Shown here in pieces: positions 3,165 to 41,140 of a DNA stretch of 64,000 nucleotides; position 1 is the stretch's first letter, and every line of letters begins with the position of its first letter. Location: positions 1 through 64,000 of IMG/VR virus record IMGVR_UViG_3300036768_001501. One strand, given 5' to 3'. Under the pieces are notes generated by a model, which made no database searches, had not been told where the DNA came from, and saw only the letters and a program-made list of their open reading frames with translations. The stretch comes from a virus. Made by a program: the position numbers and the translations under genes.

Positions 3165-3191
3165 AAACTCGCCTCCTATGTATGGGCATAC

Positions 3192-3218
3192 ATTATATCA
3201 TGCCGGCGCCATAGTCAA
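3192..3218 (-). promoter_or_regulatory. Extended -10 promoter of the clamp/recA operon
   Basis: Read on the minus strand there is TTGACT (3213-3218), a 15-bp spacer, and TATAAT (3192-3197) preceded by TGa, i.e. an extended -10 element. It is 27 nt upstream of the clamp start, with AGGAGG in between. The short spacer is tolerable for extended -10 promoters. It would drive the minus-strand operon clamp-TM protein-recA-paralogs. Confidence 0.6.
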
Positions 3219-3239
3219 CGCATATAATATACTATCTAG

Positions 3240-12949: not shown

Positions 12950-13420
12950 CAGCAAGCTGGACACTCAGAAAACCCTGCAGCAGAAGAAAGCAGTACGGTG
13001 GAGGTGTGTACCCGTACTGCTGCTCTGCGTCCTGGAAGCAGGTCTGGTGGCTAGAAGAAGGCTTGCTCCGGTCTGTGGAAGCACCTGTACGGCTATGGTT
13101 GGCACAAGGCGGGGCTGCCCGGAGGGTGTTGCAGAGCTGGTTGGATGGGGTACGGAGGTCACCTATAGCCCTATTATGCACACTCTAATGGCTGGTAGGC
13201 TGGACACAGGTGGGCTCTCCGGCTTACGTCCCCTGCCTGGCACGCCCAGGCTGCTGTGACTAAGGGGCTGGGAGCTAACTAACCCTAACCTCCCACCTCC
13301 ACCTCCACCTCCAGCTCCAGCTCCAGCTCCCACCTCCAGCTCCCAGCCACCGTACTGCAGCAGACCGTACCTTGGGTTCCCCTGTTGCATTCTGGGTTCG
13401 GTTCTGGTAAGAAGTTCAGC
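12950..13420 (+). other. 470-bp structured non-coding segment
   Basis: No credible gene is seen here. It contains a 10-bp perfect hairpin (12989-12998 with 13012-13021, no T tract), a 6-bp hairpin (13235-13240 with 13246-13251), and a pyrimidine-rich run of CCACCT/CCAGCT hexamers (about 13285-13350) whose minus strand is G-rich enough for G-quadruplexes. It lies between the prim-pol and Mre11 genes. It could be an origin, a structured RNA or a long leader; the sequence does not decide. Confidence 0.5.
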
Positions 13421-14551
13421 ATGGAGACGTTCAGGTTTCTGCATGTTGGAGACGTTCATTTGTCTGACAGGTATCAGGCTGAGTTGGGTCCGATTCTGGA
13501 TGCAGTTCGTGATGCAGCGTACAAGCTCCGGAACGACCTGGACCTGATTGTGTTCACCGGGGACTTGTTCCACAAGCCGGTCATGACTGGGTCGTATGCT
13601 GCCAGGCGGCTGTGCGAGTTCTTCTTCGAGCTGAACGGTTTCGGTGTTCCGATTGTTGTTGTTCGTGGCACGCCGTCTCATGACGGTATCGGTGGTTTGG
13701 AGTTCCTGAAACCGTTCGCCATTGTGGTGGATGCCGAGCCGGAGAAGCAGATGTACTGGGACATGCTACCTGCATCCGGCAATGCGAAGGACTTCGTTCC
13801 GCACTATCATCGTGAGAGTGGGGTGTTTTTCCTGGAGCGGGGCAATGTTCGTGCTGCGTTCTTGGCTTCTATGCCTCGGCACAGGCAGGAAGATGTGAAG
13901 GCTCGTGTCAGGGATTGCTTCCGTCATGTTGCTACGCCGGACTTGTTCTTCACCCATGCGATGGTTTCGAGTGCCAAGACGGAGCACGGTGTGCCTACGG
14001 ACCTGTTCGATGTGGAATGGACCCTAGAGGAGCTGAAAGACCTGGGCGTGCCATTGATCGGGCTCGGTCATGTGCATAAGCCGCAAGTGCTCAGCACGGA
14101 GCCGTTGATTTACTATGCTGGGAGCGTGGGGCGGCTGCATATAGGCGAGGCTGGTGACAAGTCCATTGTGCACGGCTTCAGCGACGGCAAGTCGATTGTG
14201 CTTGAGCAAATTCCCATGCCGGCATCGAAGACGCACTACGTAAAGCCGGACAGGTATGAGGACATCTTGTCTGTGTTCGAGCATATGACAGCACGGGACG
14301 CTCTTCTGATCAACAACTACCGCAATCTGGATTTGGCGCCGGTATACGGCGAGCTGGAGCGGCGGTTCGGGTATCAGTTCTTGCGGAACGTGCGGGTGGA
14401 GTACCCGGAGGAAAAGAGGCAGACGCATGTCGTGGAGCGGTGGCGTCGTGCCAGTGTAGAGGACTTGGTTGTCGAACATGTTGTGAATGAAAACAAGGAT
14501 GCCGATGTCCAATATGTCAGGAGTCGCTTTAGGGAAATAGCGAGTGCTTAG
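13421..14551 (+). CDS. sbcD: Mre11/SbcD-type nuclease
   Basis: A 376-residue metallophosphoesterase from the ATG at 13421. It has the five-motif pattern of Mre11/SbcD/T4 gp47: GDVHLSD at the N-terminus, VFTGDLFHK, RGTPSHDG in place of the usual GNHD, a 'LFFTHAMV' histidine, and GLGHVHKPQ. These residues bind two metal ions. The C-terminal ~130 residues should contact the Rad50 partner encoded at 22870. The complex processes DNA ends for recombination. It is unusual that the partner gene is 8.3 kb away, beyond the head genes. The upstream sequence lacks a clear SD. Confidence 0.9.
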   Translation: METFRFLHVGDVHLSDRYQAELGPILDAVRDAAYKLRNDLDLIVFTGDLFHKPVMTGSYAARRLCEFFFELNGFGVPIVVVRGTPSHDGIGGLEFLKPFAIVVDAEPEKQMYWDMLPASGNAKDFVPHYHRESGVFFLERGNVRAAFLASMPRHRQEDVKARVRDCFRHVATPDLFFTHAMVSSAKTEHGVPTDLFDVEWTLEELKDLGVPLIGLGHVHKPQVLSTEPLIYYAGSVGRLHIGEAGDKSIVHGFSDGKSIVLEQIPMPASKTHYVKPDRYEDILSVFEHMTARDALLINNYRNLDLAPVYGELERRFGYQFLRNVRVEYPEEKRQTHVVERWRRASVEDLVVEHVVNENKDADVQYVRSRFREIASA

Positions 14552-15313: not shown

Positions 15314-15773
15314 CGTGATCGCCATCGCCGACAAGGCGCTGGCAAAGCCAAGCACGGTCGATGAGCTTGTCGATAATCTCGATAAGCACGAATCTTCAAA
15401 AATCGACCGGAAGATTGCCTTGCGGGCGATCTCGTCATACATCTTGCGGAAAATCCTGCACCGTGTCGAATTGGACGGCGATACGGGCGGCTTGCTCCCG
15501 ATGGATATGGCGCTCCGGTACATGCGCTTCATTATGGAGCTGGATTCGCAAGATACGACAAATTACAACGATGTTGATCCTGTAGAATTGCTGTCCAAGC
15601 TCACAGGCTTGCCGCGCGATGTGATCGTGTCCATGTACTACTCCAGCAGCCAGGACAAGTTCAAAGAAGTGACATTGAGGAAGCGTACGGTGGATGCGGA
15701 AATCAAGATTTCTAATAATTCTGAACAGGAAGATGAAGATAATATTGAAGATTTCGATATTGAAGTTGAATGA
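15282..15773 (+). CDS. Putative terminase small subunit
   Basis: A 163-residue protein immediately upstream of the large terminase gene and overlapping it by 4 nt. The N-terminal part is basic and helical (PRKRAITASDVIAIADKAL), which could be a DNA-binding region. The middle is a helical oligomerisation-like core. The C-terminus is a long acidic tail (EQEDEDNIEDFDIEVE), as seen in several small terminases and other TerL partners. Identification relies on position and layout only. It would recognise the packaging site and load the large subunit. Confidence 0.45.
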   Translation: MPRKRAITASDVIAIADKALAKPSTVDELVDNLDKHESSKIDRKIALRAISSYILRKILHRVELDGDTGGLLPMDMALRYMRFIMELDSQDTTNYNDVDPVELLSKLTGLPRDVIVSMYYSSSQDKFKEVTLRKRTVDAEIKISNNSEQEDEDNIEDFDIEVE

Positions 15774-22812: not shown

Positions 22813-22830
22813 GCACTTAAGTTGCAATTT

Positions 22831-22865
22831 CTGTTGCATGGCTCAGCTTTTGAGCTATGCAACAG
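22831..22865 (+). promoter_or_regulatory. 15-bp hairpin just upstream of rad50
   Basis: Arms 22831-22845 and 22851-22865 pair over 15 bp (one G-U) around a 5-nt loop. The stem ends 4 nt before the ATG of the Rad50 gene and 18 nt after the connector stop. There is no T tract, so it is a poor terminator. No SD is visible for rad50, so the hairpin may control its translation or mark a processing site. Confidence 0.6.
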
Positions 22866-22869
22866 TGCC

Positions 22870-25044
22870 ATGCTGATTGAAAAGCTAACGCTTCGTGGCT
22901 TTAATGGTCTTAGGCATATCGGTGGTACCGTTGAAGTAGAATTTCCGTCGTCTGGGCTGATTGCTATTGTCGGCCCGAACGGGTCTGGCAAGACGACGCT
23001 GATTGATAATGTTCACCCGTATAGATTGATGCCGTCTAAGGTTTCCAGCTTTACCCCTAGGGCATTTTCCTTCTACGATCACACATACGGCAAGGCAGTC
23101 AAGGAGCTGTTCTTTTCTTACCAAGGCAAGCGTTACCGCTCTCTGGTCGAGATTGACTCTGATCGCAGCAAGCAATCTGCTTACTTGTTTGAAATTACTC
23201 AGTCTGGTGAGGAACCTGTTGCGATTGGTGGCTATGTCTCCGATGGTAACGTTTCAACATATGATACGCTGGTCGAGCTGTTGTTTGGTCCTCCGTCGGT
23301 CTTCTTTTCTGCTGCTTTCGTTCCGCAGGGTAGACGCTTAGCAAGCACGCTCTCGCCTACGGCATTGCGTTCTATCTTTGTACTGTCGCTTGAGCTGGAC
23401 AAGATTCAATCTTGGCATGAGAAGGCAAAAGAATATGTCAGGCTTGGCGAGCGCGAGGTCGATACTCTCTATGCCAAGATAGAGACTGGCTTGGATTGGG
23501 TGCGTAAGGCTATCGAGGAGCAGCGTGCATCAGTTTTGTCACTAGATCAAGAGGCGAAAGGATGCATTGAGCAGATTGGTAATATCGATGCGTTGCGTGC
23601 AGAGGTCGAGCGTCTTGAGAAGCTGAGCGCCGAGCTGCGTAATGCTCTGGAGGCTAAGAAGGTAGAGCTTGCTCGCGCCAAGGCTGCTCATGATGCGGCA
23701 GCGAAGTCCGGCATTCAGCTTGTTGCGCAACTAGAGAGCAGGATTCGCCTGATTGACCAGTCGATGAATTCCATCAAGAGCAATATCCAGGCAGCCGAAA
23801 GAGCCGTTCAACTTGAGTGCAACGTTGCGTATTTGAACGGCAAGATCGAGAGCTTGTTGTTGGGGCTTAATGATAAGATTGGATTTGCATCTTCTGATGA
23901 GGTAGTGCAGTGGATGCTTAAAGATATTGGTGCTTCCCTGGATGAACCGACGCTTCGTGTACTGGGGCGAAAACTGAGTGCATTGAGTGAGCAATATAGT
24001 TCTGGAAGATATGATCCTGTGAAAGTTCCGTGTGACGAGTCGCTGTTTTCTCGATGCCCACTTTACAAAGAGCAGCCAAGATGGACGCATAGCCAGGTCG
24101 TGACTGCGCACGAGCGTGTTGCGGCGTGCCTGGATGTGATTGCTCAGATTGACAAATGCCAAAAGGAGCTTGATCTTGCTAAGGCTTCGCTTGAGTCGAT
24201 TCGGATGCGCGCTGGTAACGTTGACGCTCTTAGGGGAGAATTATCTAGCCTTGAAAAGCAGAAGGCTGAATTAGAGAACGAGCTAAAGCAGGCAAGGCAG
24301 AGTGCAGTCGGTAATTTTGTTGATAATGGTCTGCAGTCAGATGTCGAGCAGCTTGCCGCTGAGCTAGCTCATGTCGGCGCGAAGCTGGCAGAGTACTCAC
24401 GGAAATTGCGCGATGCAGAACTTCATGCCGCTCGCTTGGATTCTATTTGCCTGTCTCTGGATCGTGCCTTGTCATCTATTGATGGCATTGGAAAACATTG
24501 TGATGAGATCGAGGCAGACATCTTGGCGCTTGGTGCGGCGAAACATCGGCTAGACCACGATTACCTTCTGCGTAGTGCATTGAGCGAGCGTGGCGTTCAG
24601 ACAATGCTACTTACGCGAGGCATCCAGGACGTGGAGCGCATTGCTAATGAGCTGCTCGGCTTAGCTCTCGGCGGGCGCTACAAGATTTCGTTCAGCTTCA
24701 TTCGTGAGCTGAAATCAGGCGATAGCAAGATGGAGTTTTCTTTGTCTTTGATTGATTCCGTGCTCGATACTAAGCGCGATTTGTCTACGCTTAGCGGCGG
24801 CGAATCTGTAATGGTCATGGAGGCAGTTTCGCGTGCGCTTGCCATCTGCTGCATGCCTGGCATTCGTACGATTGTCGAAGACGAAGCCGATGGCGCGCTT
24901 GATACTGAAAGACGCGGAGAAATCTTGCAACTGAAACGTGCTGCGCTAAGTGCTGGGCATATTGTGAAGGATATTTTTGTAACTCACAGCAGTGAGATCG
25001 TTGCCGGTGCCGATCATGTACTAGAAGCGCCGCTGTTTTGCTAG
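22870..25044 (+). CDS. sbcC: Rad50/SbcC-type ATPase
   Basis: A 724-residue SMC-like ATPase from the ATG at 22870; a TTG-started frame from 22822 would include the hairpin and is less likely. It has an N-terminal Walker A IVGPNGSGKTTLID (residues ~36-48), two long coiled-coil segments, and a C-terminal ABC signature LSGGES with a following 'TIVEDEADGALDTE' Walker B. At the coiled-coil apex (about residues 394-402) there is C-x7-C, a possible zinc hook but wider than the usual CxxC. Together with the Mre11-like nuclease it should process DNA ends. It is placed inside the head-tail operon, not beside its partner. Confidence 0.9.
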   Translation: MLIEKLTLRGFNGLRHIGGTVEVEFPSSGLIAIVGPNGSGKTTLIDNVHPYRLMPSKVSSFTPRAFSFYDHTYGKAVKELFFSYQGKRYRSLVEIDSDRSKQSAYLFEITQSGEEPVAIGGYVSDGNVSTYDTLVELLFGPPSVFFSAAFVPQGRRLASTLSPTALRSIFVLSLELDKIQSWHEKAKEYVRLGEREVDTLYAKIETGLDWVRKAIEEQRASVLSLDQEAKGCIEQIGNIDALRAEVERLEKLSAELRNALEAKKVELARAKAAHDAAAKSGIQLVAQLESRIRLIDQSMNSIKSNIQAAERAVQLECNVAYLNGKIESLLLGLNDKIGFASSDEVVQWMLKDIGASLDEPTLRVLGRKLSALSEQYSSGRYDPVKVPCDESLFSRCPLYKEQPRWTHSQVVTAHERVAACLDVIAQIDKCQKELDLAKASLESIRMRAGNVDALRGELSSLEKQKAELENELKQARQSAVGNFVDNGLQSDVEQLAAELAHVGAKLAEYSRKLRDAELHAARLDSICLSLDRALSSIDGIGKHCDEIEADILALGAAKHRLDHDYLLRSALSERGVQTMLLTRGIQDVERIANELLGLALGGRYKISFSFIRELKSGDSKMEFSLSLIDSVLDTKRDLSTLSGGESVMVMEAVSRALAICCMPGIRTIVEDEADGALDTERRGEILQLKRAALSAGHIVKDIFVTHSSEIVAGADHVLEAPLFC

Positions 25045-26911: not shown

Positions 26912-28282
26912 ATGCCTACAGCAAAGACTACGTACTCGATTGTAGATTTTACCGTTGCTCAGGCGGCCATTGAAGACAATGGGTATGGCCAGCTTGCGGT
27001 TGGTACGCAACTTGAGTTTTTACCGGTTTACAACGCAACCGAGCCGCTGGTTCAGCACGTTCAAGGCTCGGACCCGATCGAGCTAGCTGATTCGCAGCTC
27101 GGTCCTGCTGCATTTTATGTGACTGAGCCGACTTACCGGATGTCGGCAACGACATATGTTTATTGTAGCGATCCCGACAATCCGCCCCCTTGGGCCAGCA
27201 TTTTGCTTCAGTGCAGCGGTTTCAAGAAATCCGTTTGGACCGGCACTGCGCCGTCTGGGACTTTTACTGCCGGCGCGCTTCAGACTCCGGGCAAACTGGC
27301 CAACGGAACTTACAAATATGTATTTTCTGAAGTTGACAATGTGCAACTTTCTGGTGGCAATCCAAGCCCGACTTACCGAAACGAGACCCCAGCATCTAGC
27401 TCGTTGACGGTAAACGTGACTGGTGGCCCCGCTAATGTTCCTCTTAACTTGCCAGCAGCAACTGCTGGCAAGGTGTTTCGTATTTATCGTACGAAGGCTG
27501 GTGGTAGTGATTACTATTTTGTTGCTGAGATGATTAATGGCGCTGCGCAGACGTATGTCGATTCTACTCCTGATAGTGATTTGGATATTTCTCGTTCCCC
27601 AGTTACTGCTACTGGTGGCACGTTCTTTTATCCACTGTCGGAGCATTTCCCCAGCGCCCAAATTAAGGTTTTCATGCACTCGCATAGCCGGACGCTGATT
27701 GGTGCACGTGGTACGTGGACTCTCGACGCAGAGGCTGGCCGGGCTATGCCAATGCGTTGGGACATTAATGGTCTATATAACCCAGCGGTTGCTGAGGCCA
27801 ATCCATCGATTGGCGTACTGAATCCTGGAATTCCGTTTATTTTCCGCAACGCAGTTCTTACTCTTGCTAAGACTACTCGTGGAAAGACATCTGGTAGCGG
27901 TGCGACGATTACGGCGATTGTGAAGTCCATTTCGATTACCCCAGGTACTCCGCTGGATAATAGACGTGATGCTTCTACGTCTACTGGCCTTAAGGAAATT
28001 GGTATTCATCGCCGGTTCGACCCTCGGTTTGAGGTGGTTTTCGAGGTTGATCGCAGTTTCGCATTTGATGCGGTTGAAGAGTACAATAGCATGACTCTGT
28101 TCTCTGCGGTTTTGAAAGTCGGGTCTGGTCCTGTTGTCCGGTTCCATTTCCCGAACATGCAGATCATGGATGCTCCAGCGCTTGTGAATCAAGACGGCGG
28201 CATTCTCTGCTGGCGAGTCGCATTTCGACCGCGTCCTTATCAACGAGACGATTTCATGAAGATTTCGTTCCTGCCTAGCTAA
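26912..28282 (+). CDS. Major tail tube protein with inserted Ig-like domain
   Basis: A 456-residue protein. The first ~115 residues and the last ~200 residues look like a long siphovirus tail tube subunit: a 'FLPVYNATEPLVQHVQGSDPIELADS' start, 'PPPWASILLQCSGF' (typical of tube proteins), and a C-terminal 'FHFPNMQIMDAPALVNQDGGILCWRVAFR' (quoted by ends). Between them (about residues 115-225) sits a domain with 'GTYKYVFSEVDN' and 'GKVFRIYRTKAGGSDYYFVAE', alike to the insertion in the connector. The domain would decorate the outside of the tail. It is followed by a strong terminator. Confidence 0.75.
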   Translation: MPTAKTTYSIVDFTVAQAAIEDNGYGQLAVGTQLEFLPVYNATEPLVQHVQGSDPIELADSQLGPAAFYVTEPTYRMSATTYVYCSDPDNPPPWASILLQCSGFKKSVWTGTAPSGTFTAGALQTPGKLANGTYKYVFSEVDNVQLSGGNPSPTYRNETPASSSLTVNVTGGPANVPLNLPAATAGKVFRIYRTKAGGSDYYFVAEMINGAAQTYVDSTPDSDLDISRSPVTATGGTFFYPLSEHFPSAQIKVFMHSHSRTLIGARGTWTLDAEAGRAMPMRWDINGLYNPAVAEANPSIGVLNPGIPFIFRNAVLTLAKTTRGKTSGSGATITAIVKSISITPGTPLDNRRDASTSTGLKEIGIHRRFDPRFEVVFEVDRSFAFDAVEEYNSMTLFSAVLKVGSGPVVRFHFPNMQIMDAPALVNQDGGILCWRVAFRPRPYQRDDFMKISFLPS

Positions 28283-28400: not shown

Positions 28401-28985
28401 ATGGGAAAACTAGCAAGCACTATCGAGAAATATGTTAACCAGTCAGCGCGGCCAGTACGAAGCGTGGAAATTATCGATATGTCACGTATCGACCCGGACC
28501 TGAAGCGTAAGGTTTGCGCTGTTGTGCGGTACGTGGATCAAATGGAGTACCGCGCTGACGAAACGCAGATGTCCGACCCGGATTTCCGAAAGCAGTTTGC
28601 TAGTGAGGCTCTGCTTGCAATTTATGATGACGGGTTTTTGCCCTTCCCAGCGGATAAGGTGACAGAACGCGCGGTTGCTGGCTGGAGGGGCGCGCTTGGC
28701 GAACTAGCTCTCAAGGTACTCTGTCCGAAAATTTTTGAAGCCGATCTTGGCGATGCCGGTAATCAATCTGGCGCTGAGCGTGTTTTCGAGATTTCAGATA
28801 ACGACGACCTCCTGGCGATTACGAAGCTCATGGACAGTGCCTTTTTCACTGCAATGTATTTTGGCGCTATTTCCTTGAGGGAGTTTGTCGTCAAGGAGGT
28901 TGATCGCGTAAAAAACTCATCACAGCCTACGTCCACTTCGCCCACGCAATCAACACCCCAAGATTCTGTCGTGGAAAAGGCGTAG
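28401..28985 (+). CDS. Tail assembly chaperone, frame-0 product (G-like)
   Basis: A 194-residue protein between tail tube and tape measure, the classical place for lambda gpG-like chaperones. The N-terminal ~160 residues are helical and acidic ('RADETQMSDPDFRKQFASEALLA'), followed by a Ser/Thr/Gln/Pro-rich end. The 3' part holds a full -1 frameshift cassette (see 28894-28990), so a minority of ribosomes should make a longer GT-type fusion of about 309 residues with the frame 28916-29329. In known phages the G:GT ratio is important for tail assembly on the tape measure. Confidence 0.8.
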   Translation: MGKLASTIEKYVNQSARPVRSVEIIDMSRIDPDLKRKVCAVVRYVDQMEYRADETQMSDPDFRKQFASEALLAIYDDGFLPFPADKVTERAVAGWRGALGELALKVLCPKIFEADLGDAGNQSGAERVFEISDNDDLLAITKLMDSAFFTAMYFGAISLREFVVKEVDRVKNSSQPTSTSPTQSTPQDSVVEKA

Positions 28986-28990
28986 GCTGT
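28894..28990 (+). promoter_or_regulatory. -1 programmed ribosomal frameshift cassette
   Basis: Three elements are in register: an internal SD AGGAGG (28894-28899), 10 nt further the slippery heptamer A-AAA-AAC in frame (28910-28916), then 5 nt and a 12-bp stem (28922-28933 with 28979-28990) whose 3' arm contains the frame-0 stop TAG. The -1 frame is open from the heptamer to 29329. The geometry is as in the dnaX frameshift site. Confidence 0.85.
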
Positions 28991-29329
28991 TCCGAGAAGG
29001 CGTTTCATACTTGTCGGTGCTGCGAACACTCCGTGTTTCGCGGATGGGATCGCAGCCTATGTGAGGAGAAGTGCGTTTTCGACAACTTCCCTCCAATTGT
29101 TAGGGCGGTTGTCGATCTGGTAGGCTCTTGCCTGCATGTGCAGGCAGGCGACAGCGGCGTACTGTTTGTTGACCTGAACGACCTGCGCTATGACCGGATG
29201 CTTAAGGCGCATGGCGTTCAGCCAAGGCTCGAATTAGAGGAGCTTGTGCTGCATACCCTTGCCGTGTTCCGCGAAGTCATCGGCAAGGAGGGTATCATGT
29301 TCACGAAGGAAATGCTTGACGTATCTTAA
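28916..29329 (+). CDS. Tail assembly chaperone, -1 frame extension (T part of GT)
   Basis: A 137-residue extension made by -1 frameshifting. The GTG at 29033 could start a 98-residue protein on its own, but the frame is open back to the slippery site and its sequence looks coding throughout. The first third has a Cys/His-rich segment (C-RCCEH ... LCEEKC, about 29010-29070), a likely zinc knuckle as in T parts of several phages. The end is acidic and helical (ELEELVLHTLAVFREVIG). It should bind the tape measure. Confidence 0.75.
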   Translation, partial: LITAYVHFAHAINTPRFCRGKGVGCSEKAFHTCRCCEHSVFRGWDRSLCEEKCVFDNFPPIVRAVVDLVGSCLHVQAGDSGVLFVDLNDLRYDRMLKAHGVQPRLELEELVLHTLAVFREVIGKEGIMFTKEMLDVS

Positions 29330-29416: not shown

Positions 29417-32400
29417 GTGGCAAAGCGCGAGGATATTAGCGTCGAGTTAGACGTATCGGTTACAGAGGAGCTTAATAAGCAAGCTACCAGTGTAACCAAA
29501 ATCTCCAGCGCCATATCGTCTATCAAGTCTGGCGCTCAGGAGGCTGCCGGTCCGATTAAGCAAATCGCGACCGACATGAAGTCTATTGCTACGAGCTCTT
29601 CTGATTTTGTCAAAAGCTTCGGCGATCTGCGCAAGGCTTTTGACGAGCTGAAAAAGCTCAATGTTAGTGCCGCCACGGAGAAGCTCAAAAAGGGACAGGA
29701 GAAGATTGAGGAGTTCACATCCAAGGTACGCGGCGCTGCGAGTGAGCTTGCCGATCTAACAAATAAGATCAGCAGCGCCACGTCAGGTATTGTATCTGCG
29801 TCTGAAGGAATCAAGTCTGTATCAACTGCTGTTTCTTCTCTTTCTACATCTATCGAGCGGGCCAATGCTGTTATCGATGCGTTTGCTTCGCGCGCTCGCC
29901 AATTGAGCGAGGCTGTTCAGTCAGTTGCTAATTCAGTAGCAAGAATCAGTGAATTAGAAGCCAAGACGCAGAGCGCCGAGACGCGGGCAAAGACTGAAAC
30001 CGCAAAGCGGCGCGCTGCTCGTCGGCGGCAGCCAGAACCAGAGCCAGAGCCGACGCCAGAGCCTTCTCGTGGTGGCAGGAGAATTGTTAGTCGCATATCA
30101 GCCGTCGGTCAATATGTTCGTACCGAGCCCGAGCCTCCTCCTCGACCGCGTCGTGGCGGTGCGCGCGCTTCTGCTGTGCAGCAATATTGGCATACCGCGC
30201 CAATGGTTACAAATGTATTACCGTCTGATGGCAATGAAAAGCCAGAGCCACCTCCTCGATCGCGTCGTGGAGGTTCGCATGCGCATACATATGTTGTGCG
30301 GCAATATGGGTACACAGCGCCAATGGCTACAAATGTAGCCCCGTCTTATAAGCGTACAAAGCAACATGGTGCTCATGAGTCAACTATTGGGCCTGGGCAT
30401 TATGTCCATGTGCCGGCTGTTATTTATCCATCAGAAAAGGAGCCTCCGCGAGGGTACAGATACGGTTTTGGGTTTGGCGAAGACCCAACAAAGTTGTATC
30501 CGATTATGTCCGAGTATGCCACAGAGATTATGAGTCATGGTTTGCGCAGGCGTATTGGATTTCAGCCTGGTGGAAGCGAGTTTGTTGTAAGAGAAGATGC
30601 ACCGTTGCAGATGAAGCAGCGACTTGCTTCGCCAAAATATAGGGCTCAGCTTGCTCAATTTCTGAGTCGTCTTGAATCTGGGCGTGCTCCGAGCGCAGCC
30701 AGCGGAACTAGACTTTATCCGACAGCATCGGCTAGCTTATCAACCCCTATCAGCATGCAAGCTGCTAGCTTATCAACCCCTATCAGCATGCAAGCTGGCG
30801 GTGTGTATGCCGGACCTAGTGATAGTGGCAGTGGCGGCGGGACCATTATGGGTCATGCGTCTGTGATCACGACCGAAACCCCGCGTCGCCGTCGTGGCGG
30901 TCGTCGCCCAAGCCTCTATCGTTGGATGGATGTTCGTGAGGCAAAACGTCGTTTTGCTGATTTGTCGGATCGACCGCTTGATGAGATTCTTGATCTTCTA
31001 AAAACAAAAGAAGAACGCGAAGCTCTGAAGAAGAAAACGCAGGCCGTTCAGACGGGGCAGTTCCGTATTCTTGACTTAACGAATGAGGTAGAGGATTTCT
31101 TTAGGGCTAAGCGCGAAGAGGAGCTTAAGAAGCTACCTAAGAAGGAACGTGAGTTTCGTTCGCCTTTCTATATCCCTGAGGAAATTGACATCACTGAAGA
31201 CCCAGTGATGCACGCGATGCTCAAGGTTTATAAGGACCTTAAGAAAGTGCCCGAAGCTATGCACTTCGTTGCGACTAGGGCACGTGAGAAGTTGTCCGGT
31301 GAGCGCGTACGGCAGTTCCGCGAGGTACTTAGTCAAGCTGGATTTAGCGAAGAGGACATAGAAAAGGGCCGGTTCCATGTGCCCTTTGTTCCTTTGTCGC
31401 TTGCTGCCGATATGTCCGATCGTGCTGCGTTGGCTAATATTATGCTCGGCGGCGGCGGCAGAAAGCAGGCTGTAATTAGCTATGCGTTGAAGCATGCTCC
31501 GCATGCTCTTACGCCAGCAGGTTCGGCGTTCACTACTGCCATTTTTGAGCGTGGTTTAGGTTCCGAGCTGTTTAGTGAAGCATATTTGCAGGCGTTTGCG
31601 CAGGCAAGGCCAGAGACTCAGACTTATATTATGAAGCGTCTTAGCTCATTGCCGCGCTCTAAGGAGTATCAGTACGCCCAGAGGATGCGCTTATTCTTTG
31701 CAGATTTGTACAAGCGCAGCCCAGAGCCGGCAGTAAAATTGATGCGTGAGCTTGGCCCAGCAGTTGAATCGCTGTCTTTTAGTCCGCAAGATATTGTTTC
31801 GCTTTGGAGGGGGATACGCTCTGCTGTTCCTGGCGGGCTGGAGAAAGTTAGGACGTTTACGGATTTCTTGAAATTCGTTGCTCCAGCGCAGCAGAAGGTT
31901 TGGTCTGGTACATTTGTCGGTAGAACATTAGTGCTTTCATCTGCTATCCGCGATTTAAAGGAACAGTACGAGAAAGGTGAGCTCTCGAAAGGTAATATTG
32001 AGGACCTGAAAAGCCTGGCGGCTTCTGTTCGGCTTCTAAGTCGGTCATTTAGAACGCCAAAAGAGCGCCAACTTTCGCAGCTTGAGGTTGGGAAGAGAAT
32101 CAATGATTTGATTGGCAAAATTACAGGCAGCAAATTCTACAAAGTGCTGCCAGCGAATGTGCAGCGAGACATTGATCACCTGATTAGCAATACTGTTGCG
32201 CCAATGCTTGGAGAGCCTGAGCATGCGGATATTCAGCAGCTATTTGATGTGGCTAGTGATATAAGGATCAAGTTGTTTGGCAGGCAGGCAGAAACTGTTG
32301 GCCAAATGCTCAGGCGATTATCAGATCATGCCAGGAAGGTTCTGCCGAAAGGTGAATTCAGGGCTTTTGAGAAGACTCTTGAGGAATACAGGCCAGCTAA

Positions 32401-35400
32401 GGGGCAGAAAGTTTCGTCTGATGTTGTCTTTAAGAAGATTTATCAAGATGTCATGTATGGCAGGTTCGGCAGTGAAGAGCTTTCCCAAAAGGTTCGTGGA
32501 GTTATGTCATCTGAATGGCACCGTGTGCGCACTGCGCATGATCCATTCGAGCATGCAAGGAAACACACTGGGGCCGATATTGTTGGTGACGAATTGAAGG
32601 ATGCATATATCAAGCAACGGTCATTGCATGCAATGACTCAGGATATATTCGACATCCTTCCTGGCCCAAGCCCGTACAAGTACTATGGAGTGCGTGCACC
32701 TCTATTTGTGAGTGCTGAGCCGTACGAAGAGCAAGCAAAGATTGCTCTAGTGACTCGGGCCAAGATGAAATATTTGCCAGCTTTCAAGGATAAGAATTTT
32801 ATATCCGGCATTGCCCGCTTGTACGAGATTTTCGGTGGCGTAAATCCGGCAAAGCTGATTGAAAAGGCAGAAAGCGGCAATGCGATCGCTGCGCTTGAGG
32901 CCAAGATGCTCTTGCCGAAGAAGGGCGAGGATTGGTTGCAGCACCTTGGCAAACTTATTCTTTCCCATCGCGTTGGAACATCGTTGGATATATTCGGTCG
33001 CAACATCAATGAAGCCATTCGGCGCCAACGCGAGGAGGCGCGTGCGATGCGCCGACGCATGCGCATGATGAAGAAGATTGAACAGGAAGCCAGGCGCAAT
33101 GATCCATTCGCAGATAAAAAGCTAGAGGCTGCTCTAGAGGCAGAAGAGCCGTTGAAGCGTGTTTTCTCGACAATGTATGGGCGCGCTGGCGTTAAGCTTC
33201 AAGAAAAGCAGCTAGAAAGACTTGTTGACCTGACCCTTGGTAGCGATTTCTGGGCTGCGCTACGTTACCAAGACGCGCTGGAAGTTCAGAAGAAACCAGA
33301 GCGTTTTGTTATGACCATGATGGAATTGCTCGGGTTTCCCAGCGCCTCCGTTGTTGGCATGGGTAAGCTGCCTTCGTACGAGCAGCTTGTTGAGAGCTTG
33401 GCCAAGCATGGTGATGCTTTCGTTTCTAATGCAATCGGGATTAGCAGAGATGTTGAGCGCGAGCTTCAAATGCTTGGTCTCGGTAATATTATTGCAAATG
33501 AGGTCTCTAAGGCTTCCGGCACGGAAGAGGCGGCTAAGAAGGATCGAAGCCGCAAGAAGGAAGTTGGCGCTGCGGAACTTACGCCGTCTGAGAGTGATGC
33601 CAGCAAGATTAAGAGAGCTCTGCGCAACAAGGGTACAAAGCTTAGTAAAAAGACTGCAAACATTCCGCTCACTGCCCAAGAGCTTATCGAGATGGCAGCT
33701 AATCTTGGTAAGGGGCGGCGGTCTATCCCTGAAGGCGTAGATATTGAGTCTGCATTTGAACAAAGGAAAAAGAATATCGCTGAGTTTGCGTCCTTGCTTG
33801 GTATTGATCCTAAGTCCCAAGCCGGTCAGAAGCGCTTGAAGGGCTGGGAGGAGTACCTTGAGAAGCTGAAGGAATCTGGCAACATATCTCAGCTAGTATT
33901 TCCGAACGTCGCTGAATGGCTTTTAGCAAGCGGTGTACGCGGAAGGCCGACGCCAGAAGTGGAGGAAATGAATCTGCGCATTGCCTCCTGGCTTCATGAG
34001 CACGGTCTGCTGGCTGGTACAAGCAATACGATTCTCAGGTGGCGGAAATTTTTTGAAGAGCAAGGTGGCCAGGTCACCAATGCTATTGCAAGCCAGATGA
34101 TTAAGCCTAGCAAGCCAAGCGGCCCGCAGGCGTCTGCTGTATTTACGCCAATGATGGCCGGCGGCATGTATTCTGGAATGCCGAGTGGCGGCATGTCAAT
34201 GGTTGGCGAAGGTACTTATTCGACTGGCCCGACGATGCAGTTTGGGCAATATAGCTTTACTCCGTACGCCGAGTCCGGAAGTCCGCGAGCTATGGCTGCA
34301 GGTGGTGGCGGTGGCAAGGGCGGCGGTGGCAAGGGCGGCGGAAAGAAAGGTGGTGGCTTCTTTGGATTTTTTGGTGGCGGCGGCGGCGATGACGATGGTG
34401 GAGACGATGAGGAAGAAAAGGAGCCACCTAAGAAGCAAAAGCGCGGACGCAAGAAGAAATCGAGTGAAGAAGAGATAGATTGGACTGCTCCGCGTAGCGC
34501 GACTGGCGATAAGACCATTGATTTTATTGTCGATCGCGTCACCAAGATGGTCAGCGCAATTCGTAAGCCAGAGCTTACGATGCCAGGATCGCAGGAGTCG
34601 TTTTTCCGTGAAATTGTGATGCCTGCGATCGAGGTGCTGAACGCACTTGGTGTTTCAGGGAAGCCTGTTTCCGGCCCATTGAAAGGTCGTGCTGGCAAGA
34701 AGCTGAAGAACCAGCTCAAGCAGATGGGGATCGATGTCGAGAAGATGAGTGACATCGATTTGGGCATTATTGCCGGCATGCCCAAAGATTTGTTTGATTA
34801 TCTCAAGTATCTTTTCAAGACTACGCCAGCAACGCCACGCCAACGGTCTCGTGCCAGCGAGTCGTTGGAGCATATTACCGAGACTGCGATTTTGCAGGGC
34901 AAAGTTGCTGGTGGCGAGGTAGACCTGTACCCGTGGCAAATGCAGACCATCAAGCGCCTTGCGTCTTTGCTTGGCCCAGAGGTTGGGCAATTTGCGTACG
35001 GTCTGTTCCAGATGGGCAACATGTTCAAGACGCTGACGCAGGCAAGCCAGTTGGCTGCATCGAGCCCGTCGCCATACCTGTACGAAAAGCGCGTTACGAC
35101 AGGCCCAGCTAAGCAAACTTATATAAAGGCTCGGCGCGGGAAGGCGATGGCTTCGGCTGCAGATTTGATTGCCAAGGCGGAGTCTCAGGCCGAAGCATTC
35201 AGAATGATTTCAGAAGGTGCGTCACTGCTGCCGCCTAAAGACCTAGCAAAGGCCATAGAAACATACATGAAGACAGGTGATGAGGAGGTCTTCAAGCAGA
35301 CAGTCGATTCCATGTTACGTCGTGAATCGGCTAAGACGCAGTACGAGCAGAAGATTCTACAGAAGCGCAATGTTGTTGATGAGCTTAAGCGAATCGAATT

Positions 35401-38400
35401 GACCAAAAAGGCTGTAGAGATGATTCGCAGCGGCAAAACCAAGCTGCGCGATGTTGATGATGTTGTGAAATATCTAGAAATCAAAGAGGAGTACGGAAAA
35501 GAGGTTGGGAAGCAGTTCTACGATGAATTAGTGAAACAACAGGAAGCACTAGATGCCCTTACCAAGGAGCGCAAGCAGCGCCTTGAGGCGCAGAAAAAGG
35601 TAGATGAACAGAAGCGCAAGACTAAGGAAGCAATCGAGAAGGCTAAGCGTGCGCGCGAAGAGGAAATCCTACCATCCGAGGCGGCTCGTCAATGGCAAGA
35701 GCTGGCTCAGTTTGGGAAGCCTCTTTATTTCGGTCGCCGTAGATTTACTCGGCAGTACTTCGAGCGCGAGTTTGGCGTAGATTTTGCTCGGTTTATCCCA
35801 ACTGAAGAACACATTGATGCGCTTGTGCGATTGCGCAAGTTGCAGGCCGAGGCCGGATCTGTTGCTGCTGCTCGGGAGGCGGAGAAGACATTCAGTGCTC
35901 TTTTTGCCACGCAGCGGCAGCGCGAAATGATGGTTGATTGGAAACGGCGTCGGCGCGAAATTGAGCGTGAGCAGCTTGAGGCGGATCGCTTGCAGCGGGA
36001 GATGGAAATCAACCGGCAAGCAATGGAAAACATCCGCCTCCGCAAGACTCCGCTAAAAGATTTGCGCCTAGAGACGCAAGCTGTGCGCATCGAGATGGCT
36101 GCAAGGCGTGCCGGCTATTCTGAGGAAGAAGTGCGTCAGAGAGGCGCAAGTTTTCGCCAGACAGCTATTCAGTACGAGCGTGAGCAAACGCACTTCCGTC
36201 GCTTGAAAATCTCTTGGGAAGAATTGCTCCGGTACATGGGCCGCGTGTTTATTGGCTTGCAAGCATTCGACATGCTCCGTCGGGCCATCGATGTGGCAAC
36301 AAACGTAACATTTGGATTTGCGCGGCAAATGCAAGATTTGCGCATTGGTGTTGTTAGTTCAGTTACTGCACTGAATAGATTTACAGTCGGCGGTCGCGGT
36401 GCCGAATTCGGTATGCGCGAACAGGTGCAGCTAGCAGCCAGCGAAACGCAGGGAACTATCATGTTAATGAAGCAATATGCTTTGAAGTTCGGCGTACCGC
36501 TGGATCAATTGCTTGAGGGCTACCAAACGGCAGCCGGCGTGGCAAGGCAAGCTGGGTTCACTGGCCCAAATGTGGTCAAGGCTATCAGCTCCTTGGTTGC
36601 GTTCTCCCAAGCGATGAACATCAGTATGAGCACGTTGGCCCGCACGATCGATAACGTGTTCACTGGCCAGCGTGTTGCTCAGGTAACGCTTGGTCGCATG
36701 CTCGGCTTGTCCGAGAGGAAAGTGCGCGAGCTTGTCGCCAAGGGCACTTTCCGTGAAGAACTTATGCGCCGCTTGGAGCCGGTAGCAGAAGCTGTTCAGC
36801 AGATGGGTGATACGAGCATTCGTGTGCAATCTGCTCGTACGCTGTCTGCTATGATGATTTACTTCAATCAATTTACTCAGCCGGTTATGGATGTGGTTGC
36901 GCGTGGTATTGGCATTGCCGGTGCGCCGTTCAAGAGCCTTGCTAATGAGATGATTCTGAAGGAGGCGCTATATCCTGATCGTAGTTTCTTGTCGAAATCG
37001 TTTGACTACGGGCGGGATTTCATGCTCCCGATGGGAGCTACGATTGGTAGCATTGTGATTTCGCGCGTTATTACCCACGCCATGCGCAATGCCGCTATGG
37101 AGGCCGCAAAGCAGGTTGGTGGAGCAGCAACTGGCGGCTTGATGTCTAGGCTTATAGCTTATGTACTTGGCGCCGGTGCTGGTGCTGCTGGTGGTGGTAT
37201 TTTGCGAAGCGCGATGGCGCGCATTGCTGGGTTCTCTTTGACTAGATTTATTGCTTCAAGGCCGCTGTTGGCGCTGCTTAGTGGAGCACTAACCAGTGGT
37301 GGCGTTCTTATGCCGCAGATTCTGTTAACGATGCTGCTTACCGGCGGGACGCTCGGGTTGACGTACTTGCTATCAAGGTCGCGATCGCAGAAACTGAGCG
37401 GTGAAAATTTGGCTGAAGCTGTATCGATTGCTCTGAATGAGGAAGCCCGTAAGGCCGTGTTGGAGAATCGCGGGATGGACGTTGTTCGGAGCAAGATGGG
37501 CATTTACGGCCCCACTCAGGGTGCGCCCGAAGCTCGGCCTTCGTCTTCTGCCCTATATGGGCTTTTGCCGCTCCCTGGGCCTGGGTATTTGCACCCGTCG
37601 CCGACGCCTACCCCAACTCCCGCCATTACAGCTACCAGTACTCCTACTGTTACCCCTACTGCTACCCCTACTGTTACGCCGACGTCGCCACCTGGTGGTA
37701 CTGCGGTTGATTTGTCAGCCGAGGGCGGTGAACCAAGCAAAGAAGTAAAGTCTGTGTCGCAACTGCTCGATAGCGCGGGGAAGATTAAAGAGAAGCTTGA
37801 AGGAGACAGGGAGCAGTACGAGCAATCTGTTTTACGTGGGCTAGCGATACCTGTTGAAGTTATGAAGGTAACGCAGCAACATATTCAGGAGGGTCAGAAT
37901 AAACTTGCTGCATTGAATGCCCTCTTGGAGCGCTTGCGGGAAAGCAGTGATGCAAATGCCCAGGCTACTGCGAACAAGCTAGAAGGAATTGTTGGCAGCC
38001 TGTCTACAGCGCTTTCGCAGTTCAGCGATACGATCTATGACGCTGAGGAGCTGGTTAAGCTTGAAACAGAGGCTCTTAGGTCTAGAGCCGCTGCCGCTAA
38101 GGCGCGTGGGCAGCTTGCCATTGCTCGTGCTCAGTACAAGGCACAGCGCGGGTTTGCTGTTAGCCCAGAGGAGTGGAGACAGGCAATTGAAACAGGCCGT
38201 CTGGCTGAAATTCCTCTTGTGGAAGAGGAGTTGAGGCGTACGCTTGAGGCTCTGCCTGATGAATTCAAGTCACTTAGCGCGCCTCCGTCTATGGAGCAGA
38301 TGAGAGATTACATTCAGAGGAGAGAAGAAGCAAAAAAAGCTGCCCAGGCCGGCGGCAATCTCTCTCGTGAATATATCGATCGAGAGGCAAGGAGGCTGTA

Positions 38401-41140
38401 TAGTCAATATCTGAAGGCGTACGAATTGAAGCAAGATATTGAGGCCAGCAGGGGTAGTGCGTCTCTTGAAGCAGAGAGGGTTATTCTAGAGTCAGATATT
38501 GCAAGAAGGCGCCAGATGCTTGCGTACACTTCTGAGTCTAAAAAGAACCTTGCCCAGCTATCTGGTGACCTGTTGAGCGCAGTGTTGGGCGTGCAGCGCC
38601 CTGGTGATTTGCCTGGTGGGATAAAGAGATTTCGCGAGCTGCTTTTTGGTCTAGCCGGTGAAAGGCTAGAGCATGAAATGGCTTTGATTAGCAGCCAGTA
38701 CGAGAGCCGGCTTATGGAAGCCGAGCTTATGCCTGGGATGGCCGACGCCATTAAGCAATCAGCAGAATCTTTTCTTTTGAGCGCCGAAACGCAGGCTCGT
38801 TTATCGGCAATCGGGACTCTAGGAGGGATTGCTACTAGGCAAGCTGACGAAGCTAGCAGGCGCATTGCTGTTCGTCTTGAAAAATCTCAGTCTGAGGCAC
38901 GTTTGGGCGCAAGCGCTTTGACGCTGGTCAATCCACTTAGCGAGACGACAGATGTAGCGGCTCGTATCTACGGTTCGATGTTGTCGCGTAGTGCCATTCA
39001 GGAGGCCGTTGCGTCTTTGGATCAGCAAATTAGTGAGTATGACGCTACTGCTCAAGAGGTGCGCAAGAGAATTCAAAGCATTGCCAGTACAGATGCAGAG
39101 CGCATTGCTGCACGTGCAGAGTTGCAACGAATTGAAGAAAAGCGCAATGAGCTTGAGCGGCAACGAATTAATTTGCTCGCAGAAGGCAATGAGCGCTTAA
39201 TTGAAGAGATTCAGCTTCGCATGGAGCTGTACCGTCGATCGTTTGCTGGCAGCATATTGTCAGGCCTCATTTCCGGTGGCCCGTTTGGGATGCTTCAGCC
39301 TCTTGCGCAGCGCGGTGAAGAGGCTTTGAATAAAGCCTTTGCTAGGCTTCTTGGTTACATTCCTGGCCCGCGCCGTGGAGTACAAGAACAGCGGGTAGAG
39401 GCCGAAAAGGTGCAGATCAATGTTTCTGGCGGCGATAGAAGGTACTCAATTGGCGGGCAGTTGATGGAAGATTTTAAGAACCTGCTTTCGCAGAATGTTG
39501 AGGAATCGAAAGCCGCTGAGGCAACTGGAAAGCAAGTTACTCAGGATGCCAAATCTCTTGGGAAAATGATCGCTGAAAAGCTTGGCATTTCTGACGCAGT
39601 TACCGCTTCTGTTGGTGCTTCTTATCAGGCATTTCGCATTATATCTGGTACTATTGAGACAGTGGATGAGATTCAAGATCGTATTCGCGCCCTGCGTAAC
39701 CAGGTCGGCTGGACGCTGAACCCAGATAAGTACGCGCAGCGTGCTATGGCCGAAGTGTTGAGGCCGTTTGGGCTGGGTGGTTTTGGCAAGATTATTGGCA
39801 TGAGTAATTTGGGCAAGGGCCTTTCCGCCGCAGGACTAACTGGAGTTGGAGCTGGTGTTGGCTTTTTGGTTGGTGGACCAGTTGGAGCTGCTATCGGGGC
39901 AGGGCTTGGAGCTCTCTTAGGCGCGTTTGGGGCATCTGGGTTTGGCTTGTTTAGGCCGCCAACTCCAGCTTCGCGTTTGCGTCGCGGATTGCAGCGTGTT
40001 TTCGATGAGCTTGGCATTCCGCGTGATGCTCGTGGCGGACGTGGAATTTCGTTTATGCCGACGGAGTACAGCGAGATTACCGGAGAAGTTGGCGCAGCCA
40101 CTGGTTTGTACTTGCGCAAGCGTTATCCTGGGCTTGGCGACTTGGGCCTTTTGCCGATTCGTATGATCTATGCAACCGCACAGGCCGGCAAGGCTCTTGG
40201 GTTGGCGCGTGAAGATACTGAGTACTTGGCCCGCTCTGTATCGAAGAAGCTCGTTCCATCGCTTGAGGCCGCTGCTATGGCGCTCGCTTCTCTCTATCGG
40301 AAGGGCGCTATCGGGCAGAAAGATTTCCTAAATGGCGCTGCTGGTATTGCTAGGATTTTTGGTGAGCTTCCGCCAGCGATTAATGCAGCCGCATTAGCTG
40401 TGAATGCATTTGCCCGCGACGGAAGCATTAGCTTCGAGCGCCTGAAACGTACAATCCAGGATGCGCAACAGGTTGTCTCTCGTGGCATTGCTGACGCCGT
40501 ACGGCTCGGTGTTGAGTCAGGTGGAAGCGTTGCGCTGACTGGGCAGGCGATCGGTGACGCATTTTCTGATGCTTTCTTGCAGCGCGTGACCGAGCGCCTG
40601 ATGCAGCGAAAGGACATTGGTGACGCTTTGACGCGGGCTGTAGCTGAGGCTGAATCTGCTGCCGAGCTGCTTGCCGAGGGGCGTACTCAGGAATACGCAG
40701 TTCAGATTCAGAAAGTTATGTCCTTAATAGCCGAGTCGCAAACAAAAGTGGCTCAGATCATTTCTCCAGTGACGCAAGCACTCTATAGTGTTCGCACGAC
40801 TCTTGGCATCGGTGCTCCAGGCGTTTATGCCCAGATTGGGTTCGGTGCATACAACTCCCAGTATATTGCCAATCAGCCCGCTAGGTACTTGTACAAAGAT
40901 ACTGGAGAAAGCGCTACTGCGTATGCGCCAAGGGCCTTCAGGCATGAAGACATTGAGAAAATGGGCCAGGTGATTGCTGGTGCTGTAGCAACAGCAATTG
41001 AACGTAGCAGTAGCGGCCAAAGGGTTACGATTAATGTCGATGGTGGAGAGTTCGGTACCGCTGTCAGCGGTGTTATGTACAAGCAGTCAAAGACTAGGGG
41101 AATTCAAGTTTCTACACCACAGATGTTTGGGTTGGAGTAA
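29417..41140 (+). CDS. Giant tape measure protein
   Basis: A 3,907-residue protein from a GTG, placed after the chaperone pair and before the distal tail genes. N-terminal ~200 residues are coiled-coil. Residues ~200-310 hold three imperfect repeats with 'EPPPRPRRGG' and 'TAPM-x-TNV-x-PS'. Residues ~438-460 are a perfect 33-bp tandem duplication (ASLSTPISMQA twice). A Gly-rich stretch lies at ~1626-1660, long charged coiled coils to ~2260, and hydrophobic helices at ~2540-2650. A Pro/Thr stretch is at ~2728-2758 and a Gly/Ala-rich hydrophobic hairpin at ~3476-3512. The coiled coils set tail length and the hydrophobic parts may insert in the membrane during DNA entry. No enzymatic domain was recognised. 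At ~0.15 nm per residue the tail could approach 0.6 micrometre. Confidence 0.9.
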   Translation: MAKREDISVELDVSVTEELNKQATSVTKISSAISSIKSGAQEAAGPIKQIATDMKSIATSSSDFVKSFGDLRKAFDELKKLNVSAATEKLKKGQEKIEEFTSKVRGAASELADLTNKISSATSGIVSASEGIKSVSTAVSSLSTSIERANAVIDAFASRARQLSEAVQSVANSVARISELEAKTQSAETRAKTETAKRRAARRRQPEPEPEPTPEPSRGGRRIVSRISAVGQYVRTEPEPPPRPRRGGARASAVQQYWHTAPMVTNVLPSDGNEKPEPPPRSRRGGSHAHTYVVRQYGYTAPMATNVAPSYKRTKQHGAHESTIGPGHYVHVPAVIYPSEKEPPRGYRYGFGFGEDPTKLYPIMSEYATEIMSHGLRRRIGFQPGGSEFVVREDAPLQMKQRLASPKYRAQLAQFLSRLESGRAPSAASGTRLYPTASASLSTPISMQAASLSTPISMQAGGVYAGPSDSGSGGGTIMGHASVITTETPRRRRGGRRPSLYRWMDVREAKRRFADLSDRPLDEILDLLKTKEEREALKKKTQAVQTGQFRILDLTNEVEDFFRAKREEELKKLPKKEREFRSPFYIPEEIDITEDPVMHAMLKVYKDLKKVPEAMHFVATRAREKLSGERVRQFREVLSQAGFSEEDIEKGRFHVPFVPLSLAADMSDRAALANIMLGGGGRKQAVISYALKHAPHALTPAGSAFTTAIFERGLGSELFSEAYLQAFAQARPETQTYIMKRLSSLPRSKEYQYAQRMRLFFADLYKRSPEPAVKLMRELGPAVESLSFSPQDIVSLWRGIRSAVPGGLEKVRTFTDFLKFVAPAQQKVWSGTFVGRTLVLSSAIRDLKEQYEKGELSKGNIEDLKSLAASVRLLSRSFRTPKERQLSQLEVGKRINDLIGKITGSKFYKVLPANVQRDIDHLISNTVAPMLGEPEHADIQQLFDVASDIRIKLFGRQAETVGQMLRRLSDHARKVLPKGEFRAFEKTLEEYRPAKGQKVSSDVVFKKIYQDVMYGRFGSEELSQKVRGVMSSEWHRVRTAHDPFEHARKHTGADIVGDELKDAYIKQRSLHAMTQDIFDILPGPSPYKYYGVRAPLFVSAEPYEEQAKIALVTRAKMKYLPAFKDKNFISGIARLYEIFGGVNPAKLIEKAESGNAIAALEAKMLLPKKGEDWLQHLGKLILSHRVGTSLDIFGRNINEAIRRQREEARAMRRRMRMMKKIEQEARRNDPFADKKLEAALEAEEPLKRVFSTMYGRAGVKLQEKQLERLVDLTLGSDFWAALRYQDALEVQKKPERFVMTMMELLGFPSASVVGMGKLPSYEQLVESLAKHGDAFVSNAIGISRDVERELQMLGLGNIIANEVSKASGTEEAAKKDRSRKKEVGAAELTPSESDASKIKRALRNKGTKLSKKTANIPLTAQELIEMAANLGKGRRSIPEGVDIESAFEQRKKNIAEFASLLGIDPKSQAGQKRLKGWEEYLEKLKESGNISQLVFPNVAEWLLASGVRGRPTPEVEEMNLRIASWLHEHGLLAGTSNTILRWRKFFEEQGGQVTNAIASQMIKPSKPSGPQASAVFTPMMAGGMYSGMPSGGMSMVGEGTYSTGPTMQFGQYSFTPYAESGSPRAMAAGGGGGKGGGGKGGGKKGGGFFGFFGGGGGDDDGGDDEEEKEPPKKQKRGRKKKSSEEEIDWTAPRSATGDKTIDFIVDRVTKMVSAIRKPELTMPGSQESFFREIVMPAIEVLNALGVSGKPVSGPLKGRAGKKLKNQLKQMGIDVEKMSDIDLGIIAGMPKDLFDYLKYLFKTTPATPRQRSRASESLEHITETAILQGKVAGGEVDLYPWQMQTIKRLASLLGPEVGQFAYGLFQMGNMFKTLTQASQLAASSPSPYLYEKRVTTGPAKQTYIKARRGKAMASAADLIAKAESQAEAFRMISEGASLLPPKDLAKAIETYMKTGDEEVFKQTVDSMLRRESAKTQYEQKILQKRNVVDELKRIELTKKAVEMIRSGKTKLRDVDDVVKYLEIKEEYGKEVGKQFYDELVKQQEALDALTKERKQRLEAQKKVDEQKRKTKEAIEKAKRAREEEILPSEAARQWQELAQFGKPLYFGRRRFTRQYFEREFGVDFARFIPTEEHIDALVRLRKLQAEAGSVAAAREAEKTFSALFATQRQREMMVDWKRRRREIEREQLEADRLQREMEINRQAMENIRLRKTPLKDLRLETQAVRIEMAARRAGYSEEEVRQRGASFRQTAIQYEREQTHFRRLKISWEELLRYMGRVFIGLQAFDMLRRAIDVATNVTFGFARQMQDLRIGVVSSVTALNRFTVGGRGAEFGMREQVQLAASETQGTIMLMKQYALKFGVPLDQLLEGYQTAAGVARQAGFTGPNVVKAISSLVAFSQAMNISMSTLARTIDNVFTGQRVAQVTLGRMLGLSERKVRELVAKGTFREELMRRLEPVAEAVQQMGDTSIRVQSARTLSAMMIYFNQFTQPVMDVVARGIGIAGAPFKSLANEMILKEALYPDRSFLSKSFDYGRDFMLPMGATIGSIVISRVITHAMRNAAMEAAKQVGGAATGGLMSRLIAYVLGAGAGAAGGGILRSAMARIAGFSLTRFIASRPLLALLSGALTSGGVLMPQILLTMLLTGGTLGLTYLLSRSRSQKLSGENLAEAVSIALNEEARKAVLENRGMDVVRSKMGIYGPTQGAPEARPSSSALYGLLPLPGPGYLHPSPTPTPTPAITATSTPTVTPTATPTVTPTSPPGGTAVDLSAEGGEPSKEVKSVSQLLDSAGKIKEKLEGDREQYEQSVLRGLAIPVEVMKVTQQHIQEGQNKLAALNALLERLRESSDANAQATANKLEGIVGSLSTALSQFSDTIYDAEELVKLETEALRSRAAAAKARGQLAIARAQYKAQRGFAVSPEEWRQAIETGRLAEIPLVEEELRRTLEALPDEFKSLSAPPSMEQMRDYIQRREEAKKAAQAGGNLSREYIDREARRLYSQYLKAYELKQDIEASRGSASLEAERVILESDIARRRQMLAYTSESKKNLAQLSGDLLSAVLGVQRPGDLPGGIKRFRELLFGLAGERLEHEMALISSQYESRLMEAELMPGMADAIKQSAESFLLSAETQARLSAIGTLGGIATRQADEASRRIAVRLEKSQSEARLGASALTLVNPLSETTDVAARIYGSMLSRSAIQEAVASLDQQISEYDATAQEVRKRIQSIASTDAERIAARAELQRIEEKRNELERQRINLLAEGNERLIEEIQLRMELYRRSFAGSILSGLISGGPFGMLQPLAQRGEEALNKAFARLLGYIPGPRRGVQEQRVEAEKVQINVSGGDRRYSIGGQLMEDFKNLLSQNVEESKAAEATGKQVTQDAKSLGKMIAEKLGISDAVTASVGASYQAFRIISGTIETVDEIQDRIRALRNQVGWTLNPDKYAQRAMAEVLRPFGLGGFGKIIGMSNLGKGLSAAGLTGVGAGVGFLVGGPVGAAIGAGLGALLGAFGASGFGLFRPPTPASRLRRGLQRVFDELGIPRDARGGRGISFMPTEYSEITGEVGAATGLYLRKRYPGLGDLGLLPIRMIYATAQAGKALGLAREDTEYLARSVSKKLVPSLEAAAMALASLYRKGAIGQKDFLNGAAGIARIFGELPPAINAAALAVNAFARDGSISFERLKRTIQDAQQVVSRGIADAVRLGVESGGSVALTGQAIGDAFSDAFLQRVTERLMQRKDIGDALTRAVAEAESAAELLAEGRTQEYAVQIQKVMSLIAESQTKVAQIISPVTQALYSVRTTLGIGAPGVYAQIGFGAYNSQYIANQPARYLYKDTGESATAYAPRAFRHEDIEKMGQVIAGAVATAIERSSSGQRVTINVDGGEFGTAVSGVMYKQSKTRGIQVSTPQMFGLE
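30731..30796 (+). repeat. 33-bp perfect tandem duplication
   Basis: Units 30731-30763 and 30764-30796 are identical and encode ASLSTPISMQA twice within the disordered N-terminal region of the tape measure. The perfect identity indicates a recent slippage or duplication. Confidence 0.9.

Follow-up and report, generated by a model that had tools for sequence, protein, structure and literature searches.

A putative programmed -1 frameshift cassette with an internal Shine-Dalgarno sequence and a downstream stem in a phage tail-chaperone gene

The stretch of viral DNA analysed here (the window, 64,000 nt, part of a 91.5-kb virus record) raises the question of whether the short open reading frame (ORF) in front of its tape-measure gene yields one protein or two. 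The TerL, portal and major capsid genes (at 15770, 17354 and 20186) are followed by a tail-protein ORF of 456 aa, an ORF of 194 aa, a -1 frame open to 29329 and the tape-measure ORF, in this order. The 194-aa ORF has on one side the tape-measure gene, recognised by PHROG, and on the other the probable major tail protein gene, recognised by a weak match to tail proteins of RHph_Y1_11 and S-LBS1. A first-pass annotation had proposed for this place a tail-chaperone -1 frameshift cassette, with stimulators of the dnaX type at the position of lambda G/GT, and this was the best reading of the locus. Its features, all on the + strand, are as follows.

26912..28282, +: upstream tail-protein ORF, 456 aa, probable major tail protein (tblastn and IMG/VR relatives)
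28401..28985, +: frame-0 ORF, 194 aa, putative G-type tail assembly chaperone, judged by where it lies and how it is built; its own Shine-Dalgarno (SD), GGAGG, lies just 5'
28893..28900, +: internal SD AAGGAGGT, eight nucleotides complementary to the 3' end of 16S rRNA (read from the sequence)
28910..28916, +: slippery heptamer A_AAA_AAC, in frame 0 of the 194-aa ORF
28917..28921, +: 5-nt spacer between heptamer and stem
28922..28933, +: 5' arm of a 12-bp stem (fold and pair probabilities)
28979..28990, +: 3' arm of the stem, holding the frame-0 TAG (fold and pair probabilities)
28916..29329, +: -1 frame extension, 137 codons plus stop, putative T-type domain (open frame and coding score)
29417..41140, +: tape-measure ORF, 3907 aa (PHROG 167 and 1538, tail length tape measure)

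At 0.15 nm per residue, the value used for phiCbK (PMC3556154), the tape measure would correspond to a tail some 590 nm in length, which is very long given a record of 91.5 kb. Other genes of the region included an SbcC-like ATPase gene (22822-25044) within the head-tail module, between the head-tail adaptor and the tail genes, and an SbcD-like partner (13385-14551) 8 kb upstream of it, before the terminase; a tRNA-Ile (aat) called by ARAGORN inside the tape-measure ORF (33390-33484) is probably a false positive.

The elements of the cassette could be read directly from the sequence, and every coordinate given for them in the first-pass annotation was correct: AGGAGG (28894-28899, within the 8-nt AAGGAGGT), 10 nt before the in-frame heptamer (9 nt if counted from AAGGAGGT), the 5-nt spacer and the 12-bp stem. 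No start codon was present at a usable spacing after the internal SD. The stem has 12 pairs, including one G-U, and a loop of 45 nt with weaker internal pairing. An in-phase X_XXY_YYZ heptamer, an SD within the 9-14 nt upstream reported for -1 shifting (PMC5009743) and a stable structure a few nt 3' are thus all present, as in signals of the dnaX/IS911 type. The -1 frame was, as proposed, open from the heptamer to a TAA at 29327-29329, and the predicted fusion has the expected length (172 + 137 = 309 residues); its T-type domain is Cys-rich near the start (CRCCEH). The frame-0 stop, displaced by 23 codons, falls inside the 3' arm (TAG, 28983-28985), also as described. The further claim that translation reaching this stop opens the stem was correct, but the same holds for every ribosome that gets past the 5' arm, in either frame, and for this reason no special role is claimed for the stop in the stem.

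Stem, SD and heptamer were compared with chance expectations. The 79-nt fold (-27.3 kcal/mol, z = -4.67) was not equalled in stability by any of 200 dinucleotide shuffles, and in none of the contexts tested, which ranged from 79 to 351 nt, did the probability of any of the 12 stem pairs fall below 0.65. Of 4428 positions sampled from genes of the phage, 0.09% had an SD as strong as this one (duplex energy -12.6 kcal/mol), 0.54% had a stem of at least 12 pairs, and none had both. Trials of synonymous recoding also gave stems of 12 or more pairs, at rates from 0.2% when frame 0 was preserved to 3.2% when the -1 frame was, which makes the stem by itself weaker evidence. The strongest single test was architectural: 22 in-frame X_XXY_YYZ heptamers were found in 23 phage genes, and only the one at 28910, directly before the tape measure, opens a -1 frame that is longer than 100 codons or leaves its gene by at least 100 nt.

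The proteins themselves offered few comparisons. Searches of IMG/VR, INPHARED and GTDB genomes found no protein directly homologous to G or T, family searches gave no useful match in PHROGs, Pfam, NCBIfam, INPHARED or IMG/VR, and a profile comparison of the two proteins with alignments from the relatives, using a single-sequence query of low power, showed only a possible GW.G motif. Low sequence similarity has been reported for this class of chaperones (PMC5009743), so that homology to a known family would support membership but is no prerequisite for it, and the chaperone identity is assigned here from position and architecture. An AlphaFold model of G alone (pLDDT 41) was not used. No close relatives of the locus turned up in the collections searched; TerL relatives had only 28-36% identity and came without the tail region. 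The upstream tail protein gave distant tblastn matches to S-LBS1 (5e-5) and RHph_Y1_11 (2e-2) and, as a single sequence, no relatives in IMG/VR; aligned with five relatives, it led to 80 more IMG/VR loci. The apparent link to all these loci runs through this one weakly similar protein.

The same device was frequent among these distant relatives. A_AAA_AAC (30 loci) or G_GGA_AAC (37 loci) was present at the equivalent place in 67 of the 81 loci whose upstream tail protein is related (the 80 from the alignment plus S-LBS1). The codon after the heptamer was nearly always the frame-0 stop, and the -1 frame ran for about 90-125 codons. Thirteen of the 81 had no candidate site, six of them with less than 1 kb of sequence past the match. 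In S-LBS1 and RHph_Y1_11, the gene after that for the tail protein carries A_AAA_AAC at its end, and the -1 frame (116 and 139 codons, respectively) ends at or near the start of the tape measure. The same heptamer was found in RHph_TM16, RcZahn and several IMG/VR loci (some identical at the site), and G_GGA_AAC in RHph_I4, L338C and one further locus; the -1 extensions of this Rhizobium/Rhodobacter group, before the tape-measure gene, have 129-146 codons. Conservation of the heptamer, suggested beforehand as a check, was borne out as far as homologues this distant allow, in the 67 of 81 loci and in the Rhizobium/Rhodobacter group.

Two loci deserve separate description. In S-LBS1 (MG271909; locus L006, 12619-13340), genes A18 and A20 resemble a G/GT pair that has escaped annotation, with A_AAA_AAC-UGA at the junction; A18 was deposited as an ABC-transporter ATPase component, and frameshifting is not mentioned in the S-LBS1 genome paper. 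Locus L151 (IMGVR_UViG_3300025309_000168, 2530-3219) offers another tail-chaperone candidate whose internal SD is strong: GAGGAGG precedes C_CCU_UUG by about 11 nt. Its -1 part carries a Cys motif (CARCEHR) resembling CRCCEHS in the window.

Stimulators were compared across 70 distinct cassettes. The 50 nt past the heptamer folded on average more stably than shuffles (mean z -1.84, 73% below -1), and the folds usually began 5-8 nt past the heptamer. An 11-bp stem is kept in one A_AAA_AAC subgroup, where two of the pairs are compensatory, a figure matched by 35 of 500 shuffles; in the G_GGA_AAC group, covariation was no better than in shuffles. For the internal SD (8-14 nt zone), the window had the strongest of the 70 (-12.6 kcal/mol), followed by L151 (-12.4, comparable) and RcZahn (-9.7), most others being weak. 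Downstream folds are thus general in the distant relatives and a strong SD is absent from most. A scan of IMG/VR for AAGGAGG-N9-12-AAAAAAC gave no tail-chaperone-like cassette among the 121 matches listed; among these, the pair of SD and A6C is no common design of tail genes. The same pattern occurred at one fixed place in an open frame of about 740 codons, unrelated to tail chaperones, in L031, L047, L048 and at least some 25 more IMG/VR loci. No paper on an internal SD in tail-chaperone frameshifting was found in the open-access papers searched.

These data bear on the alternative that survives best, namely that the slippery site works and the SD and/or the stem are coincidental, with no measurable contribution. 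Certain tailed phages seem to need no stimulators (review, PMC5009743), most relatives miss the strong SD, and synonymous recoding reaches 12 pairs at the rates given above. Even so we consider it unlikely: the SD and the stem are each rare, correctly spaced and never together elsewhere in the sampled positions, and downstream folds are general among the related cassettes.

Past the frame-0 stop, the -1 frame had a coding score of 0.112 per codon, which exceeds every wrong-frame window sampled in the phage (maximum 0.072) yet lies below the 5th percentile of true frames (mean 0.258); by this codon-usage score the extension is protein-coding, as expected for a chaperone of this kind. In a second alternative, the frame from 29033 to 29329 is a separate gene, self-initiated from a GTG or translationally coupled, and the heptamer is incidental. 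The earliest possible start in the -1 frame, the GTG at 29033, would give a 98-aa ORF, and several annotated relatives have the T part deposited as a separate gene, both of which suit two genes. However, this GTG has no SD before it. From the heptamer up to 29033 the -1 frame lacks any start codon, yet the -1 frame of the relatives is open from the heptamer, and phiCbK-like phages are annotated with one joined product. Two separate genes are, on this evidence, very improbable. Transcriptional slippage on the A6 run as the source of the fusion, instead of ribosomal frameshifting, can point to the six A before the C and can practically be dismissed, six A being a short run for polymerase slippage and the sister G_GGA_AAC sites, with only three A, fitting tandem tRNA slippage and not polymerase slippage.

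We therefore favor programmed -1 frameshifting, with stimulators of the dnaX/IS911 type, that would produce a G-type chaperone and a 309-residue GT-type fusion, and give this reading a probability of about 0.92. Several observations speak for it. The SD gap of 10 nt and the stem at 5 nt are the canonical spacings. The -1 frame scores as coding, offers no evident place for initiation and lies directly before the tape measure, and no other of the 22 in-frame heptamers opens a long -1 extension. The same or sister heptamers occur at the equivalent place in relatives and in the published phiCbK-like phages; downstream folds in the 70 cassettes are on average more stable than shuffles, and one subgroup has two compensatory pairs. 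The sequence elements, the coding -1 frame, the gene order and the like sites of distant relatives are observed; that the shift takes place, its level and the roles of both proteins are inferred. Most ribosomes would read 28401-28985 and make the 194-residue short chaperone, and a fraction of them would pause with AAA and AAC in the P and A sites. The internal SD, paired to 16S rRNA about 10 nt upstream, would pull the mRNA back, and the stem 5 nt downstream would resist entry; both tRNAs could then re-pair on AAA AAA, and the ribosome would resume at CTC (28916) in the -1 frame and make the 309-residue fusion as the minority product. By analogy with lambda, the short form may coat the tape-measure protein and the fusion may recruit the major tail protein. 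E. coli heptamers whose last codon mixes a purine with a pyrimidine slip less than those with AAA or AAG (PMC4066793), so the stimulators may make up for a weak, AAC-ending site and bring the two products into the proportion needed.

Frameshifting in tail chaperones is widespread and, for certain tailed phages, has been described as stimulator-free. In a broad set of siphovirus-type tail loci, R_RRA_AAC occurs together with a frame-0 stop right behind it and a fold further 3'; the window adds a near-perfect internal SD. The locus is a natural case for relating the G:GT ratio, stimulator strength and tape-measure length, and provides a simple annotation rule for fusions now deposited as two hypothetical genes. 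A more far-reaching idea, in which the two stimulators, of dnaX strength, set an unusually high or regulated GT:G ratio for the very long tail (3907-aa tape measure) and the displaced stop in the stem couples termination to refolding of the structure, is conceivable though doubtful.

One of the closest known counterparts is E. coli dnaX, which shares an A_AAA_AAx heptamer, an internal SD (10 nt upstream) and a downstream stem (11-12 bp, at 5 nt). It differs in a heptamer that ends in AAG, a shift of about 50% and a shortened product; the window has AAC, an extended product, a 45-nt loop and the frame-0 stop in the 3' arm. The dnaX stem has been given as 11 bp (PMC5009743). Frameshift windows of IS911 and the IS3 family also combine a heptamer with an SD and/or a downstream structure, and there the shift leads to a longer fusion (PMC4066793, PMC5009743), but these are transposase genes with branched or pseudoknot structures.

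Among phages, A_AAA_AAC of phiCbK and G_GGA_AAC of Colossus have been published as programmed frameshifts (PMC3556154). In gp93/gp94 of the phiCbK-like phages and gp116/gp117 of Colossus, as in the window, the heptamer lies directly before the tape-measure gene and has a -1 extension; unlike the window, the frame-0 stop follows the heptamer directly and there is no strong SD at 8-14 nt (-2.4 and -5.9 kcal/mol). No similarity of G or T was detectable between the window and the phiCbK-like phages. RHph_Y1_11, RcZahn and S-LBS1 have in common with the window a distantly related upstream tail protein, A_AAA_AAC, a downstream stem and a -1 extension to the tape-measure gene, but have a weaker SD, a stop that comes at the heptamer or a few codons after it, and no detectable G/T homology. 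Lambda G/GT shows the same gene order, a short and a -1 extended product, and slippage near the 3' end of G (PMC5009743); the lambda-type shift is described as low level and, in certain tailed phages, as free of stimulators (PMC5009743), whereas the window has both SD and stem. Tape-measure binding has been assigned to the short form in lambda, and binding of the tail-tube protein to the T part (PMC5009743). The class, the heptamer in tail chaperones and the types of stimulator were thus known already; uncommon here are their combination in one tail-chaperone gene, above all the strength of the SD, and the displacement of the stop by 23 codons.
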